A stretch of 64,000 nucleotides of DNA. It comes from Candidatus Obscuribacterales bacterium (lineage in GTDB: Bacteria; Cyanobacteriota; Vampirovibrionia; Obscuribacterales; Obscuribacteraceae). The notes below the pieces were generated by a model. It was not told where the DNA came from. It saw only the letters and a list, made by a program, of their open reading frames with translations, and did no database searches. The position numbers were made by a program, and so were the translations under genes. The stretch spans positions 62,001 through 126,000 of the forward strand of contig JAGVKB010000142.1 in NCBI GenBank assembly GCA_020050835.1, given 5' to 3'. Below are positions 53,507 to 61,335 of the stretch, piece after piece (the stretch's first letter is position 1; each line of letters opens with the position of its first letter).

Positions 53507-54295
53507 CTACGAAACAGCCTGTTGATTCTGTTTCACCAGCTCGCGTAGATAACGAATCTTCTTTCGTACGTAGTCGCTGTAAATTAAGTTGAGTTGAAGC
53601 CCGAGCTTTCCATCAAGGAAACCGGCGCGCACCACAAACCGATAAACGAATGTCCAGATCGGATGAAGCAGCTCGTTGCAAATGCTGATTTGCCAGGGCT
53701 TATAACCGTTCTCGAAAAAGTGTTTAGCGGACAGGCGAGCATACTTTTCCATTGCAGCCGAGAAGCCGCTTACATCCTTGTAGGAGTAGTGGTTCATATC
53801 CTGGCTCAAGCAACCAACCGGTCCGTCGACAAAAACCCTTTCATGCACGGCTCTTTGATTGAACTTTCCCTTCGATTTGCGAAACAGCCGCAACTGCGCG
53901 TCCGGGTAGAACCCGCCGTGCCTGACAGCCTCGTCCCCGATGAACAAAACTCGTGGAATCTTGTAGCCATGGCACATTTCGAGCTTGCCACCATTCTTCA
54001 ACTGCTCGACCTCCGCCACCAACTCCGGTGTCATCACCTCGTCAGCATCCAGACTGAGCACCCAGTCGTTGACGGCTAATCCAAGTGCAAAGTTCTTTTG
54101 AGCCGCATAACCGAGCCAGTCTTGATGAACCACCCTGGCACCATTCGCCTTGGCGATTTCAATTGTTAAGTCGGTCGAGCCCAAATCGACCAGAACGATC
54201 TCGTCGGCGATCAGACTGGCAGCAGCCAGGACAGCACCGATCGTGCGCTCCTCATTCATCGCTACAAGGACAAGAGAGATTTCCGTCACAAGCAC
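53507..54295 (-). CDS. family 2 glycosyltransferase (WaaE/KdtX-like)
   Basis: A 262-residue GT2 enzyme. The N-terminal SLVLVAMNEERTIGAVL and IVLVDLGSTDLT bind the nucleotide sugar, and VLSLDADEVMTPEL carries the DxD-like metal motif. The rest (HGGFYPDAQLRLFRKSKGKF, AVHERVFV, HYSYKDVSGFSAAMEKYARL) matches the WaaE group, which adds beta-1,4-glucose to the LPS core heptose in enterobacteria. Here the acceptor is a guess: an envelope lipid or glycan. It starts at GTG 54295, 55 nt from the stop of the retropepsin genes upstream, on the same strand. Confidence 0.85.
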   Translation of the reverse strand: MLVTEISLVLVAMNEERTIGAVLAAASLIADEIVLVDLGSTDLTIEIAKANGARVVHQDWLGYAAQKNFALGLAVNDWVLSLDADEVMTPELVAEVEQLKNGGKLEMCHGYKIPRVLFIGDEAVRHGGFYPDAQLRLFRKSKGKFNQRAVHERVFVDGPVGCLSQDMNHYSYKDVSGFSAAMEKYARLSAKHFFENGYKPWQISICNELLHPIWTFVYRFVVRAGFLDGKLGLQLNLIYSDYVRKKIRYLRELVKQNQQAVS

Positions 54296-54350: not shown

Positions 54351-55679
54351 TCAGGGATTCTTGAAGTGAATCACATTATGATTGTAATCTATGCTGTACT
54401 CCGCTTCTTTGAAAAAAGTTTGGCCCAGGAGAGGAAATTGCATGTGAGCATCCTCAACCACTGTCACTTCCACATTCTCCTTGAAGATCGGCCCTAGCTC
54501 CATATCATGCACAGTAAAGTGGAAACTCTTGGTCGCTCCGCCGATACCAACCGATTGGCCGGCTTCGGCATCCTCAGGAATCTCCATTCCGAGTTTGCGC
54601 AATTGACCAAGCGTAAATGAGACACCATCAGCCCCTGTATCAAAATACATTGCGCAAGGTTGCCCGTTTACCTTCACGTTGACTATTAAATTATTGCCGT
54701 ACTTCCTAAATGGAACATTGTTGCGATCGTTCTTCTCAAATCGCGCGGTTGCCTCCCTCTTTCTGAAAGTGATCGTGTTACCAACCGTATCGGTCGAAAC
54801 TTCGAAATTCTGAAAGAACGTCTGTCCAAGTAATGGTTCGGCAGATAAATACTCCTGTATCGAGATCACAAAGTTATGCAACTCCATATTTCCCACGCGA
54901 AAGGTGACAGGCATCTCCCATGTTCCTACCGGCGTACTGGACCCGACGCCCACACTTTGTCCGGTTGGCGGACCAGACGGTAATCTAACACCCATCTCCT
55001 GTAAGTGATTTTTCCCGAATACACAGCTTGATGCACCGGTATCGAAGACCATCTCGATTGCTTGGCCATTGACATAACCTTCGATGTGTTGGCTGTTGCC
55101 CTTGCGCTGAAAGCTTACTGTCGATTCGCGGGGAAGTCTTGCGTAATCGGCAGTACCGGTATAACCTCCTGGCGCGCGGCCTCCATAAGTATGGACACCG
55201 CGTGAGCTGGCAGGTTGCCCTTGGCAGCAATACGCCATCGGCTCGCTGCGAGCATTGGTTACGCCACCGCGGGAGCCACCAGCTTGGGAACTGCCTCTGG
55301 AAACGCTCCCTCGTCCGGCTGATGCCATCTTCTTCATGAAGTCAGGATCATACTTCTGCAACACACTGCTTGCCAGGCGGCCAGCTTCCGAGTCCTGGAA
55401 TCTTTCTACCAAGATGCGGTACATCTGCTTGGCACGAGGCCAATCATTCAATTGCTGATAGTTCAGCGCTGAATAGTAGTAGACGTTGCTTTCTCTCGAC
55501 GAATTGCGCACCAGATAATCAAAGTACGGAGCGGCAGCCTTATAGTTCCGCTTGTTATAAAGCGCCACTCCCTGGTCGTAATACGCGTCAGCACTTGCGC
55601 TTGAACCGCAAAGCAAGCAGATGCACAATACCAGCCAGACCAGAATGTTTCGCTCCGGCTCGAGCGCCCTAGAGATCAT
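54351..55679 (-). CDS. secreted TPR protein with two retropepsin-like domains (copy 1)
   Basis: A 442-residue exported aspartic-protease-like protein. After a signal peptide (about residues 1-30, ending ASA) come TPR-type units (DAYYDQGVALYNKRNYKAAA, YYSALNYQQLNDWPRAKQMY), a Gly/Ser/Arg linker (about 120-180), then two retropepsin domains in one chain. Domain 1 (about 186-305) has VFDTGASSCVFG with Asp213 and PLLGQTFF; domain 2 (about 325-440) has YFDTGADGVSFT with Asp347 and FPLLGQTFF. Each has the DTGA catalytic triad and the LLG (hydrophobic-hydrophobic-Gly) motif. The two could pair within the chain as one active site. It is 42 nt from its paralog upstream. Confidence 0.86.
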   Translation of the reverse strand: MISRALEPERNILVWLVLCICLLCGSSASADAYYDQGVALYNKRNYKAAAPYFDYLVRNSSRESNVYYYSALNYQQLNDWPRAKQMYRILVERFQDSEAGRLASSVLQKYDPDFMKKMASAGRGSVSRGSSQAGGSRGGVTNARSEPMAYCCQGQPASSRGVHTYGGRAPGGYTGTADYARLPRESTVSFQRKGNSQHIEGYVNGQAIEMVFDTGASSCVFGKNHLQEMGVRLPSGPPTGQSVGVGSSTPVGTWEMPVTFRVGNMELHNFVISIQEYLSAEPLLGQTFFQNFEVSTDTVGNTITFRKREATARFEKNDRNNVPFRKYGNNLIVNVKVNGQPCAMYFDTGADGVSFTLGQLRKLGMEIPEDAEAGQSVGIGGATKSFHFTVHDMELGPIFKENVEVTVVEDAHMQFPLLGQTFFKEAEYSIDYNHNVIHFKNP

Positions 55680-55721
55680 GCCCTCCCCCTCCTTAGACTG
55701 CCAACCAATTTCAATGATTAC

Positions 55722-56954
55722 TTATCGTCTCAAGAAATGAATAACGTTACGCTCGCTATCCACCGTAAATTGCCAGTCTCTGTAAAAGTTCTGTCCGAGC
55801 AACGGTTTGGGCATGGATGCATTCTCTACCACGCTCACTTCGACGTTCGACTTCTCGATCGGCCCCAGTTTCATTCTGTCAACGCTGAAATGTATGCTTC
55901 TGGTAGTGCCGCCAATTCCCATGCTCTGACCGATTTGCGCATCATCGGGAATCTCGAGTGCAAGATTTTTCACTTGCGAAAAGGTAAATGCGATGTTATC
56001 AGCTCCGGTATCAAAGTACATCGGGCAAGACTTGCCGTTAACCAGAACGTTTACGACCATCTCGTTGCCTTCTCTCTTAAAGGGAACATCATAATTGCTG
56101 GCCGCTGCAGATCCACCCGTGCCTCGTTTCCTAAACGAGATGGTCTTTGCTCCAGGATCGGTAGTGCACAAGAAGTCCTTGAAAAAGGTTTGGCCCAAGA
56201 GCGGTTCGGTCGGCATTACATCTTGAATGATCACACTGAAATTGCGACGCTCGATGTTGCCAACCTTGAGGTTGATTTGCATCTGCCAGGTCCCAACAGG
56301 AGAGCTTGAACCTACACCAAAAGACTGTCCGACCGGGGGACCGGACGGTGGAGTAACACCCAACTCGCGCAGATGATTCTTACCGAAAACACAAGACTCA
56401 GCACCGGTATCGAAGACCATCATAATCTTGCGTCCGTTCACATCCGCCTCGATGTGTTGGCTGTTGCCCACTCGCTGAAAGTAAATTTTCCCCTCATTGG
56501 GAAGTTGATCGAAATCAGCGCTTCCGCCAGAACCCGATTGGAGCAGACCAATGAAAGCCGCTGCCGGCGACGACCCAGCCGACGAGGAGGCTTGCGCGCC
56601 GACTCGTTTCATAAAATCAGGATCGTATTTCTGAAGGACTCCCCTGGCCAGACCGCCGCCTTGGCTATCAGGAAACTTTTCGACCAGATGCCTGTACATC
56701 TGTCTGGCTCTGGGCCAATCACTCAATTGCTGATATGTCAAAGCTGCGTAATAGTAAGCATTGCTATCGGACGGAGAATTGCGGATTGCGTACTCGAAAT
56801 AAGGTGCCGCCCCTTTGAAATTACGCTTGTTATAGAGCGCCACGCCTTGATCGTAGTAGGCATCTGCCGACGCAACGGGAGCGTGCAGAAAGCACAATGA
56901 AACAGTAAGCAATGCAAGCAGGCGCCTTCCGATCTTGCCTACTTTGAAGATCAT
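55722..56954 (-). CDS. secreted TPR protein with two retropepsin-like domains (copy 2)
   Basis: The 410-residue upstream paralog of the 54351-55679 protein. It has the same order: signal peptide (1-30), TPR units (DAYYDQGVALYNKRNFKGAA), a shorter Ser/Ala linker, and two retropepsin domains with FDTGAESCVFG (Asp182) and FDTGADNIAFT (Asp315), each closed by a PLLGQ motif. The linker lacks the RGG-type sequence of copy 1. The gene order and 42-nt spacing show a tandem duplication in one operon. Substrate or target is unknown; secreted bacterial aspartic proteases of this type are rarely studied. The TATAAT at 57004-57009 is upstream. Confidence 0.86.
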   Translation of the reverse strand: MIFKVGKIGRRLLALLTVSLCFLHAPVASADAYYDQGVALYNKRNFKGAAPYFEYAIRNSPSDSNAYYYAALTYQQLSDWPRARQMYRHLVEKFPDSQGGGLARGVLQKYDPDFMKRVGAQASSSAGSSPAAAFIGLLQSGSGGSADFDQLPNEGKIYFQRVGNSQHIEADVNGRKIMMVFDTGAESCVFGKNHLRELGVTPPSGPPVGQSFGVGSSSPVGTWQMQINLKVGNIERRNFSVIIQDVMPTEPLLGQTFFKDFLCTTDPGAKTISFRKRGTGGSAAASNYDVPFKREGNEMVVNVLVNGKSCPMYFDTGADNIAFTFSQVKNLALEIPDDAQIGQSMGIGGTTRSIHFSVDRMKLGPIEKSNVEVSVVENASMPKPLLGQNFYRDWQFTVDSERNVIHFLRR

Positions 56955-57175: not shown

Positions 57176-58324
57176 CTAAATCTCCAGCTCCTTCACAAGC
57201 AGGACCTTCTGGAATTCTGATGTGCCTTCACAGATCTCCATCACCTTGGCGTCGCGATAGAAGCGCTCGAGGTCGGAATCACAGCTGATGCCGGCGGCTC
57301 CCAAAACTTGAAGCGCTTCCCCGCTGTGAGTGCGAGCCACTTTTGCGGCAAACCATTTGGACATTGCGGCGTACTTCCTGAATTCGCCGGGGTTCTCATC
57401 CTTACTCCAGGCAGCTCGATAAGTGTGCAACTTGGCCGCTTCAGCTTCCGTGCCGTGATCCGCCAGTTTCCACTGGATTGCTTGATTTTGCCCAATCTCC
57501 TTGCCGAACTGCTCTCGGCTTCTGGCATGAGAGACGGACTGGCCCAGGGCGGCAACGGTCAATCCGACTGCAGCCGCAGACACAATCACCTTGGCAATAT
57601 CCATAGCAAAGAGTACTTGCTCCTTTGTACTTACCGTTGATTCAAGCTTGCTGTCCGCAGGCACCACCAGCTGATCAAACTCCAAATCATTGGAGAGCGC
57701 GGAGCGCAGACCTAGCTTTACCTTGTCTGCGGACACCTTTAGGCCGCTGGTCGAATCAACGTCGACTACCAAGAGCATCAGCTCTCCATCTTGCTCTTCC
57801 TTGCTGGCAACTGCCTTCGCCAGTACGATCAACAACCCGGCCAACTCGGCATTTACCACCCAAGTCTTTTTACCGGAAAGGATATAGTTGCCGCCGTCCT
57901 TGAGAGCGACAGTCGTGACAGCTTCGAAGTCACTGCCAGCATTTACTTCTGAGAAAGCCAGGCTCGCCACCACATCACCGCGCGATAGTAGCGGCAGATA
58001 GCGCGATTTCTGCGCTTGGCTCCCATATTGCTTGATCAATTCGATCGCCGCCGTGTGCTCTGCAATTGAGAGACCAAGCCCAGGCTCGTATTCCGAGATC
58101 GCTTGCACCAGGAGCGCAAGATTGAAAAATTTACAGCCTTGACCGCCAAACTCCTGTGGCACTGTCACGCCAAGGCAACCGGACTGCCCGATCTCTTGAA
58201 GAAACTCCTTGAGAGAGAGCTTGTGCGATTCCAGCTCTCTGGCTACTGGTTGAACCTTCTCTCTGGCAAATATTCGATACTGCTCCATCAATGCTTCTTC
58301 CGAAGCGCTCAGAAACGTATTCAC
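57176..58324 (-). CDS. acyl-CoA dehydrogenase
   Basis: An FAD flavoenzyme of 382 residues that oxidises acyl-CoA to enoyl-CoA in fatty-acid or amino-acid breakdown, cytosolic. The FAD/substrate motif LAFSEVNAGSDFEAV lies near residue 125; the C-terminal part has SREQFGKEIGQNQAIQWKLA and YRDAKVMEICEGTSEFQ, where the EGTSE Glu is the usual catalytic base. The GTG start at 58324 has GGAGGGAG 2-5 nt upstream; an earlier GTG (58345) lacks a site. Substrate chain length is unknown. It follows the MscS channel gene by 58 nt on the same strand. Confidence 0.92.
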   Translation of the reverse strand: MNTFLSASEEALMEQYRIFAREKVQPVARELESHKLSLKEFLQEIGQSGCLGVTVPQEFGGQGCKFFNLALLVQAISEYEPGLGLSIAEHTAAIELIKQYGSQAQKSRYLPLLSRGDVVASLAFSEVNAGSDFEAVTTVALKDGGNYILSGKKTWVVNAELAGLLIVLAKAVASKEEQDGELMLLVVDVDSTSGLKVSADKVKLGLRSALSNDLEFDQLVVPADSKLESTVSTKEQVLFAMDIAKVIVSAAAVGLTVAALGQSVSHARSREQFGKEIGQNQAIQWKLADHGTEAEAAKLHTYRAAWSKDENPGEFRKYAAMSKWFAAKVARTHSGEALQVLGAAGISCDSDLERFYRDAKVMEICEGTSEFQKVLLVKELEI

Positions 58325-58382
58325 GGCTCCCTCCATCAAGGACACGGGCGGATTTTATCACTGTTGCCGCAACGTTATCCGC

Positions 58383-59423
58383 TCATTTCTTTTCAGGTTC
58401 GGAATCAGGCTGCAGGGTCTCTAACTGCTGCCAGCAAGCCTGAATCACTTTACTTGTAGTCTCCTCTTGTTTCTGAATGCCATCCAGCCAAAATCGCAAG
58501 CGGTAAACAATCTGATCGACTCTGATTTCGCGCGCCCAGGAAGCTGCTGGTGGCTCCTTCAGCACACCGGCCACAGAGCCGGCGGCATTTTCAAGGGCCT
58601 CACAAACGCTCTTCGGCTCGACCTTACAACTCACCGGGACTTCGATCACGAATCCTTGGGTTGAGGTGGGCGAATCGTAGTTGATTACCTCATTTTGAAT
58701 GAGACTGGCGTTGGGAATGATCTTCACATTGTTATCTCGCGTGCGCAGTTTTGTACTGCGCCAGCCTATCTCCACAACCTGCGCTATTGCCGTGTGATTC
58801 GGATCGACTTGCATGTTGACCCAATCACCAGGCTTGAAGCTCTTCTCAAGTGTAAGTGTCAGCCCGGCAAAGATATTCCTCAAAGTATCTTGTAATGAAA
58901 GCCCCAGTACAGCCGTCAACACCGTCGAGGTCGCCAAGACGGGCAGCATGTTGACCCCCAACGCCAAATCAAGCAGGAGCAACCCAAGCGCGAAGTAAAG
59001 AACTGAAAGCACTACCACTCGGAAGGCAGCCGGCACTTCGACTTGTCGCTTCGACAGATACCAACTGGAAAAGATCAGATTTGAAGCCTGAATCAAAATA
59101 TGGACCAGCAAGAAGACGGGAACAAGCACTCCCAGCCGGAGCAACTCTTTGCCGGCTGTTCCGTTAAGGAGCCCGAAAAACGGAAGAACAGCCAGCGAAG
59201 CCAAGAGGATCTGGATCGCAGCATCCGTCTTCTTGACGACACTTTGAATCAAATAAGGATCATTAAGCCCGGTCAACAAGCACAGGAATTTAATTCCCTG
59301 CTTCCTGTAAAGCAGGAATAAGCACCATACGAATGCGGCCCAGAGCGGTATAGCGGCTGGTCCGCGCGTCAAAGCGTTTGATAACTTCTGGGGCAATTGC
59401 CCAGCTAATTGCCAGAGATCCAT
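58383..59423 (-). CDS. MscS-family mechanosensitive channel
   Basis: A 346-residue small-conductance mechanosensitive channel that releases solutes on osmotic down-shock. Four to five N-terminal helices (about residues 20-165) precede the pore helix and its Gly/Ala packing segment TAVLGLSLQDTLRNIFAGLT (about residues 165-190), then the MscS beta domain (EKSFKPGDWVNMQV, VEIGWRSTKLRTRDNNVKII) and a C-terminal alpha/beta domain. The frame is open to 59585, but the ATG at 59423 has AGGCAAAG nearby, and the longer start would overlap the divergent HEAT gene. An ATG at 59459 is another option. Confidence 0.88.
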   Translation of the reverse strand: MDLWQLAGQLPQKLSNALTRGPAAIPLWAAFVWCLFLLYRKQGIKFLCLLTGLNDPYLIQSVVKKTDAAIQILLASLAVLPFFGLLNGTAGKELLRLGVLVPVFLLVHILIQASNLIFSSWYLSKRQVEVPAAFRVVVLSVLYFALGLLLLDLALGVNMLPVLATSTVLTAVLGLSLQDTLRNIFAGLTLTLEKSFKPGDWVNMQVDPNHTAIAQVVEIGWRSTKLRTRDNNVKIIPNASLIQNEVINYDSPTSTQGFVIEVPVSCKVEPKSVCEALENAAGSVAGVLKEPPAASWAREIRVDQIVYRLRFWLDGIQKQEETTSKVIQACWQQLETLQPDSEPEKK

Positions 59424-59478
59424 CTTTGCCTGCACGAAAGCCAGAGCTGGAAAGATCATAACGCAATATAATTTCCAG

Positions 59479-61335
59479 ATGCGCACGAAATCTTCCTGCG
59501 GAATTATCAGCTCACTTCTGAAGCAACTCAAACGGCTGGCCTTCACTCTCAACGAGAAGCCGTCGACTGCGGTGGAAGAGTACACTCTCGAGCACTTCCT
59601 GCTCTATCACGGGTTGGTAGGAACCAGCCCGGAGAATCAACCGGAATTCAAGCAGGTCCGGGCCGATATCCTGGAAGCGTTCGAGCACAGAAGCAGCCTC
59701 AGCCTTTCAATCGCGCTCAAACTACAGCCGCTCTGGTGGGAAGACAAGCTTCAATCGATCATCTCAGAGGCCAAAGCCGCCCACGGTGAAGAGCTCTGCC
59801 TAAATTTGTTATGCCCGCCCGAAGCTGGCAACGAAGAGCTACCGCCAGCACAAAACCCTCTCAAAAGTGAGGATTGGCGGGTGCGCAGCAATGCAGCCAA
59901 TCTCCTCTCCTTCTTGAACGACAAGTCGGCGATTCCACGCGTCATCGAATCTCTGGGCCAAACAAGCACCGATAGCCTTAAGGCAGCGTTCTGCCACATC
60001 TCATTTTCTCTGAGCCAGCTGCAGTCGGAACAGTCAAAAGCGGCATTAGTGAAGTATCTTGACGACGAAGAGCCCTGGTTCCGCGTTGATGCGGCTCGCG
60101 CCCTGGCTACCTGGCCGTGGGACGCAGTTGCTGCCGATCTGGCGCGGGCGGTCCTGGCTCATCACAACCTATCCGATTACACAGCGATTGTGATCGCCCG
60201 AAAACATCATCCACTCGCTCTGCTAAAACACGCCGAGCCGGTCTGCCAGGAAGCAGGTCTGGAGATGGTGATTGAAATCATCAAGGCCTCTGCCCAGACC
60301 TTCCAATCCGAAATTGTCATGGAAACCGGAGTGCACTGGTGTTGGCCGGAACTCTCCGCTTCAGCGAAAGGTTATTCGAGCGCACGTCGAATCAGAGCGA
60401 CACTCGCTCTGTCCGAATGGTTGAGAGACAATTCTTCGCTCCTGGCCGAGCACCAAACCGAGTTAGCAATTCAGCCAGCCGACCAAGAAGCAGCCGCAAC
60501 TCTGCGCAGCCTGTCCGAGGAAAGACTGTTGGCACAAGTAGATGAAGCGATTGCCACCATCTCCTCTGAATTAAGCTGCAACCAGTTGGCCGAGGCGCTG
60601 GAAAAGTATCACCCTTCCGATGACAGCAAGCTTGATGACATCCGGCATACTATCTGGCTAATTGGAAAGCTGGGTGTGCGGGGATCTGCACCGCGCCTTG
60701 TCGCTTTGCTCAAGGAGCATCCGCCTTTCACCGACGATATGATCGACGCTCTCGGGCTGCTGGGCGATCCAATTGCAGCCGAGCAACTAATCGAATTGGC
60801 AAGACGGTCAGTGGATCTCGAAGATCGCCAGTCGCGCCCGGCAAGCGCCCATCCGGTCGAGGAGTCGGACGCGGCCGCTGCCAAACATTACTGGTTGATT
60901 CTCAAAGCGCTCGGGCATATTCCCCACTCAGGCAGTATTGAGCTGTTGCTCGATGCCTCGGAAGACTTTGCTCCAGACAAACGCCAGCAAGCGCTTCAAT
61001 CATTGATCTCCGCCTGCCGTAAGAGCGATTACCAAGAAAACTCCGGGCGGGTTCACGGGGCAATTGCTCGCTGCTTACAAGATCCATCCGCGCAAGTCAG
61101 AATGGTCGCACTTGACGGTGTATCACAACTGGAATTGATCGATCTGTCCACCAAAGCGCTCAAGCTTTTTGACTCAAAAGAAGTCTCGGTTAGTCGAAAG
61201 TCGCTTTCAGTGATGTCGGAGCTGGCTGATGCTGGCCACAAGAAGGAAGTTAGCGCCGCTGTTGAGTCTAAACTGCGAAGCGAATTCGACCGGTTCAAAA
61301 AGGAAAAGCTGCAAAACTTTCTCGACGGTCTGTAA
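59479..61335 (+). CDS. HEAT-repeat protein
   Basis: A 618-residue cytoplasmic alpha-solenoid. HEAT units are recognisable as DWRVRSNAANLLSFLNDKSA, EEPWFRVDAARALATWPWDA, LDDIRHTIWLIGKLGVRGSA and PSAQVRMVALDGVSQLEL, with the Asp/Arg pattern at helix turns. A long central part (about residues 240-360) is degenerate. HEAT solenoids bind protein partners; some bacterial ones are phycobilin lyase-like, but the catalytic features of those were not identified. No signal peptide or helix is present. It is divergent from the MscS gene, 55 nt away. Confidence 0.82.
   Translation: MRTKSSCGIISSLLKQLKRLAFTLNEKPSTAVEEYTLEHFLLYHGLVGTSPENQPEFKQVRADILEAFEHRSSLSLSIALKLQPLWWEDKLQSIISEAKAAHGEELCLNLLCPPEAGNEELPPAQNPLKSEDWRVRSNAANLLSFLNDKSAIPRVIESLGQTSTDSLKAAFCHISFSLSQLQSEQSKAALVKYLDDEEPWFRVDAARALATWPWDAVAADLARAVLAHHNLSDYTAIVIARKHHPLALLKHAEPVCQEAGLEMVIEIIKASAQTFQSEIVMETGVHWCWPELSASAKGYSSARRIRATLALSEWLRDNSSLLAEHQTELAIQPADQEAAATLRSLSEERLLAQVDEAIATISSELSCNQLAEALEKYHPSDDSKLDDIRHTIWLIGKLGVRGSAPRLVALLKEHPPFTDDMIDALGLLGDPIAAEQLIELARRSVDLEDRQSRPASAHPVEESDAAAAKHYWLILKALGHIPHSGSIELLLDASEDFAPDKRQQALQSLISACRKSDYQENSGRVHGAIARCLQDPSAQVRMVALDGVSQLELIDLSTKALKLFDSKEVSVSRKSLSVMSELADAGHKKEVSAAVESKLRSEFDRFKKEKLQNFLDGL

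Follow-up and report, generated by a model that had tools for sequence, protein, structure and literature searches.

The question raised by this locus is whether two neighbouring genes of a Candidatus Obscuribacterales bacterium, each carrying two retropepsin halves behind a TPR region, encode an aspartic protease that works as a single chain, and whether such a chain arose by a fusion of its own in the bacterial lineage. It bears on an older one: whether a dimeric half-enzyme gave rise to pepsin, by duplication and fusion, or a halved pepsin to the retropepsins is described as a chicken-and-egg question, because the lobes of pepsin are no longer alike in sequence (PMC2761423). Here we analyse the window, a stretch of 64,000 nucleotides from a draft genome of 7.0 Mb, together with the relatives of the two genes, named B2 and B1 in the order of transcription. 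Domain content, the universal conservation of the catalytic Asp residues, the predicted one-cleft geometry, the distribution over the order and the conserved operon are computed directly. On the whole, the results make it quite probable that the genes encode a TPR-bearing, exported, single-chain aspartic endopeptidase with a pseudo-dimer, which most likely arose by duplication in the stem of the order and was multiplied afterwards.

Two tandem genes and their products

The features of the locus are collected in Table 1. The two genes are spaced by 42 bp on the same strand, with a good Shine-Dalgarno sequence at both B2 and B1 (GGGAGGGAG; AAGGAGG), and their products share one layout: a Sec-type hydrophobic N-terminus (...ASA-D) is followed by a short TPR region, then by a linker of low complexity and finally by two retropepsin halves, each half with FDTGA followed by an LLG (LLGQ) motif. 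The original prediction had placed an export signal and a TPR domain ahead of the halves, and the Sec-type N-termini and the Pfam TPR matches, which cover about residues 30-98 in both proteins, bear this out at the sequence level. The positions it gave for Asp213 and Asp347 are exact in the 442-residue B1, and the linkers of the two proteins do differ as claimed. From the signal peptide we infer that the proteins are exported, to the periplasm or to the surface. Between B1 and B2, dN is 0.35 while synonymous sites are saturated, and both genes are therefore taken to be under purifying selection. In the half-domain trees, the branch to B1 is several-fold longer than that to B2 (0.47 against 0.08 for the N halves, 0.30 against 0.13 for the C halves), which suggests that B1 is the faster-diverging copy of the pair.

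Table 1. Positions in the window of the two protease genes, their parts and their conserved neighbours
Feature	Position	Strand	Remarks
Family 2 glycosyltransferase	53507..54295	-	55 bp downstream of B1; conserved neighbour
ORF B1	54351..55679	-	442 aa; paralogue in tandem with B2 (58% identity), with a longer linker rich in Gly and Ser
B1 retropepsin C-half, residues 321-442	54354..54719	-	Pfam and model
B1 catalytic Asp347 codon	54639..54641	-	Sequence and homologue alignment
B1 retropepsin N-half, residues 185-307	54759..55127	-	Pfam and model
B1 catalytic Asp213 codon	55041..55043	-	Sequence and homologue alignment
B1 TPR region, residues 30-121	55317..55592	-	Pfam TPR; extent from alignment with B2
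B1 predicted Sec signal peptide, residues 1-31	55587..55679	-	By eye
ORF B2	55722..56954	-	410 aa; first protease gene in transcription order; predicted to be exported; TPR region followed by two retropepsin halves
B2 retropepsin C-half, residues 289-410	55725..56090	-	Pfam and model
B2 catalytic Asp315 codon (FDTGA, C-half)	56010..56012	-	Sequence and homologue alignment
B2 retropepsin N-half, residues 154-276	56127..56495	-	Pfam and model
B2 catalytic Asp182 codon (FDTGA, N-half)	56409..56411	-	Sequence and homologue alignment
B2 TPR region, residues 30-121	56592..56867	-	Pfam TPR matches; helices in model
B2 predicted Sec signal peptide, residues 1-31 (...VASA-D)	56862..56954	-	By eye
Acyl-CoA dehydrogenase	57176..58345	-	221 bp upstream of B2; conserved neighbour
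MscS-type mechanosensitive channel	58383..59585	-	Conserved upstream neighbour in part of the order

Family assignment of the halves

Both PF13975 and PF13650 match twice in each protein, with protein E-values of 1e-27 to 1e-25, and the matched stretches score 88.9-96.7 bits against cut-offs of 24-28; two complete halves per protein had been claimed, and two such stretches are what each protein has. TIGR02281 scores 70-75 against a cut-off of 57.95, which assigns B1 and B2 to the retropepsin-like clan AA. The D[T/S]G motif and the hydrophobic-hydrophobic-Gly motif are found in both halves of both proteins. Such a double match lies far outside what chance would give, and proteins of the full architecture are found in nearly every genome of the order. 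The canonical retropepsin (MEROPS A2) is a homodimer with one half per chain, whereas every complete member of the present family has two halves in one ORF. Against the PecA profile NF038019, with its cut-off of 150 bits, B2 reaches 13.8 bits (E = 0.027) and so falls outside that family. Two retropepsin-like halves in one exported chain, as in the structure 9IY9, are also the arrangement of B1 and B2, export being predicted for the latter.

Predicted one-cleft structure

The AlphaFold2 model of full-length B2 has a mean pLDDT of 87 and a pTM of 0.63. The catalytic part of B1, modelled by itself with 60 homologues, gives a pLDDT of 94 and a pTM of 0.90, so that the relative placement of the halves is confident, with the caveat that learned priors may favour the familiar pseudo-dimer for such halves. 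In the comparison with Foldseek and VIA-align, 9IY9 is the best among the matches listed and superposes over both halves (Z 20.7-20.8, 252-253 residues, 3.2 Å); tethered HIV-1 protease (Z about 16.5, 186-201 of 198-203 residues, 3.0-3.8 Å) and pepsins and renin (Z about 16) superpose over both halves as well. PE_PGRS16 (4EHC) is absent among the best 50 fold matches, which has no weight either way. As the superposition on tethered HIV protease spans both halves, the two DTG loops of the model should be related about as Asp25 and Asp25'. The original prediction had looked to structure modelling on whether the halves share a cleft, and in the model they are placed in a single bilobal unit, predicted to have one cleft.

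The linker between the halves of B2 is short in the model, with about 13 residues from the strand ending at 276 to the next one starting at 289. Together with the high pTM of the catalytic part alone and its superposition as a pseudo-dimer on tethered HIV-1 protease and pepsins, this argues against an arrangement in which each half pairs with a half of a second chain, to give an active dimer with two active sites. We regard such a dimer as very unlikely, even though homodimers are known among the exported retropepsins of bacteria, as in RloA (PMC12239564), chains can associate with their like through TPR domains, and the full-length model has a pTM of just 0.63. In the preferred reading, the two tandem halves would fold against each other as an intramolecular pseudo-dimer, each giving one DTG Asp to one cleft where the Asp pair would activate water, similar in principle to tethered HIV-1 protease or pepsin.

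The model and its superposition thus have the pepsin-type trait of two lobes in one chain, each with one Asp directed to one cleft. It is nevertheless hardly conceivable that bacterial pepsins (MEROPS A1), perhaps of eukaryotic origin, are encoded here. Pepsins do superpose on the model over both halves, but it is the retropepsin-type profiles that match both halves, while A1 families are absent from the Pfam scan of B1 and B2 (no match of PF00026 up to E = 1); moreover, the halves are about 34% identical, whereas the pepsin lobes have no sequence similarity outside the motifs (PMC2761423), and the closest sequences are bacterial single-domain DTGA proteins. Transfer of a eukaryotic pepsin is ruled out by the same profiles, half identity and bacterial nearest sequences.

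Conservation of both catalytic Asp residues

The homologue set consists of 96 complete members, with duplicates and contig-end fragments removed. Every one of the 96 has Asp in its N and in its C half, even at identities as low as about 25%, and 95 of them retain D[T/S]G in both, the members being chosen by whole-profile score and not by motif, though with a profile itself built from motif-intact sequences. Loss of one Asp alone occurs in none of the 96 complete homologues, so the conservation of both residues in orthologs, named as a check in the original prediction, is found throughout. A hydrophobic N-terminus is present in 91 of the 96. The sole exception in the motifs is L129, which has DPA and DPN and has lost further motif glycines; this ancestral-locus copy in one genome (7991-9166), with both motifs decayed, is likely a pseudo-enzyme.

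These counts bear on whether the family is catalytic at all. PE_PGRS16 with a similar fold and DTG/DSG was inactive in one study (cited in PMC6819658), and L129 lacks both motifs; the proteins might then be inactive binding or scaffold proteins that keep the fold. This is unlikely in our judgement, as 96 copies that have diverged strongly still share both Asp residues and almost all of the DTG and hydrophobic-Gly motifs, and the joint decay of the two motifs in L129 is what one would expect of a pair that acts together in catalysis. B1 and B2 would probably be proteolytically active. Both halves have Ala after DTG as in HIV protease, a residue linked to neutral-pH activity (PMC2761423), and by this analogy a neutral pH optimum is likely.

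Distribution in Obscuribacterales and beyond

Nearly full-length homologues (E < 1e-60) are found in 47 of 50 genomes of the same taxonomic family, and the three genomes without a strong match are 65-66% complete. The protease family is also present in all three genomes of the second taxonomic family of the order, and there are up to about 10 copies per genome. Homologous loci, searched with a profile from an alignment of seven sequences, occur in relatives named Candidatus Obscuribacterales and Melainabacteria (non-photosynthetic Cyanobacteriota). Two records titled Chloroflexi and Proteobacteria (L062 and L101) have sequences that group with Obscuribacterales, with the same gene family and, for L062, also the same operon; they are probably mislabelled bins. 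Across 292 genomes sampled from the phylum, a full-length match is seen in no genome except the source's own, and the others match the TPR part or one half only. Photosynthetic cyanobacteria and further orders of the class have, in the retropepsin proteins examined, a single DTG domain, sometimes after TPR. The TPR-single-retropepsin proteins of sister orders (L165, L170, L171, L182) have the same domain order as the family with TPR and double retropepsin (below, the TPR-double family), this order being what is established as common to both. The examined loci of a Myxococcota sample have a single retropepsin DTG in all but a Kofleriaceae protein of different architecture. On plasmids, tblastn against 72,556 records gives no match, and plasmid-borne spread is ruled out by this result. 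In the literature searched, neither a TPR-retropepsin fusion nor this family in Obscuribacterales is described. Taken over the genomes compared, this predicted exported protease family appears to be standard equipment of Ca. Obscuribacterales.

The surroundings of the genes are also conserved. The genes follow one another on a single strand and are for the most part closely spaced: MscS in some of the genomes, then acyl-CoA dehydrogenase, between one and three protease genes, and a family 2 glycosyltransferase. This arrangement recurs across the order, the second taxonomic family included (L174, L175), and in many genomes Ffh and a HEAT-repeat gene border it. Such a cluster looks like an ancestral operon, and the claim that the genes were duplicated in one operon agrees with the closely spaced paralogues lying in a cluster that recurs across the order. 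The protease copies outside this locus are dispersed. Multiplication would have followed two ways, to one to three tandem copies at the ancestral operon and to dispersed paralogues. In the window, the MscS gene and the HEAT-repeat ORF (59479-61335) are divergent and their 5' ends overlap by about 107 bp as listed, so that one of the start codons is probably further downstream.

Origin of the fusion

Identity between the two halves of a single protein is 22-41%, with a median of 34% over the 96 homologues. A second double-retropepsin family is present across the order, with proteins of about 800 aa that have a different, unassigned N-terminal domain, two DTGA halves and a C-terminal TPR; the genome of the window has it on other contigs (L179:3366-5783, L180:3603-5978), and an 807-aa member (L203:2384-4804) has a single DTG motif by pattern search. 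In Kofleriaceae there is a related-looking two-half protein without TPR (L109). The mean identity between N and C halves in the TPR-double family is 0.30, compared with 0.18-0.27 to any single-domain or other double-domain group, and compared with 0.23 within the chains of the family of about 800 aa.

The fusion had been proposed to be an independent one in the bacterial lineage. In half-domain trees, which rest on about 131 columns and include the family of about 800 aa of the same genomes but leave out 9IY9, a single branch (SH-aLRT 94-99, ultrafast bootstrap 58) sets apart all halves of the TPR-double family, and a clade of its N halves has support of 99/98 in the careful tree. The AU test rejects the N halves of both double families as one clade (p = 0.012-0.015), while the C halves of both as one clade give p = 0.16; a quick tree search, before the careful tree was built, also gave a slightly better tree with the C halves of both together. 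The grouping of the halves and the rejection of shared N halves thus stand on the side of the proposal, and the unrejected sharing of C halves, with the bootstrap of 58, leaves it partly supported. The findings on the C halves, and 9IY9 as the best structural match among those listed, fit an older fusion, in a common ancestor with the proteins of about 800 aa, Kofleriaceae and Bacteroides 9IY9, from which the double domain would have been passed down. We consider this possible but doubtful, given the rejected joint clade of N halves, the position of all TPR-double halves on one side of the branch and their higher identity within the chain. By these sequence comparisons, a duplication of a single retropepsin within the chain, placed in the stem of the order, is moderately favoured over a shared fusion. 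According to this favoured reading, the single retropepsin domain of an exported ancestor would have been duplicated in frame in the stem of Ca. Obscuribacterales. We see an even chance that the family is a natural, independent re-run of the duplication-fusion suggested for pepsin, in which the halves specialised after the in-frame duplication and are still recognisably similar, with single halves, some with TPR, persisting in sister orders. An example of such specialisation would be the largely conserved Trp of the N half (residue 223 of B2), which is without an equivalent in the C half.

Comparison with known systems and significance

Among known proteins, 9IY9, a putative exported endopeptidase of Bacteroides fragilis for which the literature search found no publication, is closest: it has two retropepsin-like halves (FDTGA, FDTGN) in one chain and is the best retropepsin-type sequence match to B1 and B2 in PDB. 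However, the identity is 17-18%, and about 150 residues of another kind precede its halves, with no TPR match seen. Tethered HIV-1 protease (1G6L, 3KT2, 1LV1) also has two halves in one chain with one cleft, and nearly the whole enzyme superposes; but it is a man-made fusion of identical halves, while B1 and B2 are natural, with diverged halves, an export signal and TPR. RloA of Pseudomonas resembles them as an exported bacterial retropepsin with DTG and several paralogues per genome, and differs by one half per chain, a homodimer in crystal and solution, and no TPR reported (PMC12239564). PecA and PE_PGRS16 of Mycobacterium have a surface-exposed single-chain aspartic protease fold with two motifs (DTG/DSG; PMC6819658), though in PE/PGRS context and with a very weak sequence match to B2. 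Single-domain clan AA DTGA proteins (TIGR02281; Rickettsia APRc, PMC4140852) are of the same family as the halves of B1 and B2, yet have one half per chain and dimerise. Pepsins are bilobal single chains with one Asp per lobe as well, but with larger lobes that lack sequence similarity to each other, and they belong to a different family. Single-chain double retropepsin-like proteins are hence already known in Bacteroides (9IY9) and Mycobacterium (PecA, PE_PGRS16), and the principle is not unprecedented. New here are the TPR architecture, the order-wide presence in many copies, the conserved operon and the still visible similarity of the halves.

As for function, RloA acts in osmotic tolerance and biofilm (PMC12239564), APRc is located at the outer membrane (PMC4140852), and PecA takes part in the processing of surface proteins (PMC6819658). 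The exported aspartic proteases known from bacteria thus serve envelope functions, and by analogy B1 and B2 may do so. Substrates of the family would be envelope proteins, and the TPR region may dock substrates or a partner in the envelope.

The halves of this family are about 34% identical, its class also has relatives with one half, and paralogues are numerous; how symmetry is lost after a fusion can hence be followed here, and a duplication-fusion of the kind suggested for pepsin becomes testable thanks to the half similarity still to be seen. The finding also points to an uncharacterised, predicted exported protease family across one side branch of the cyanobacteria.
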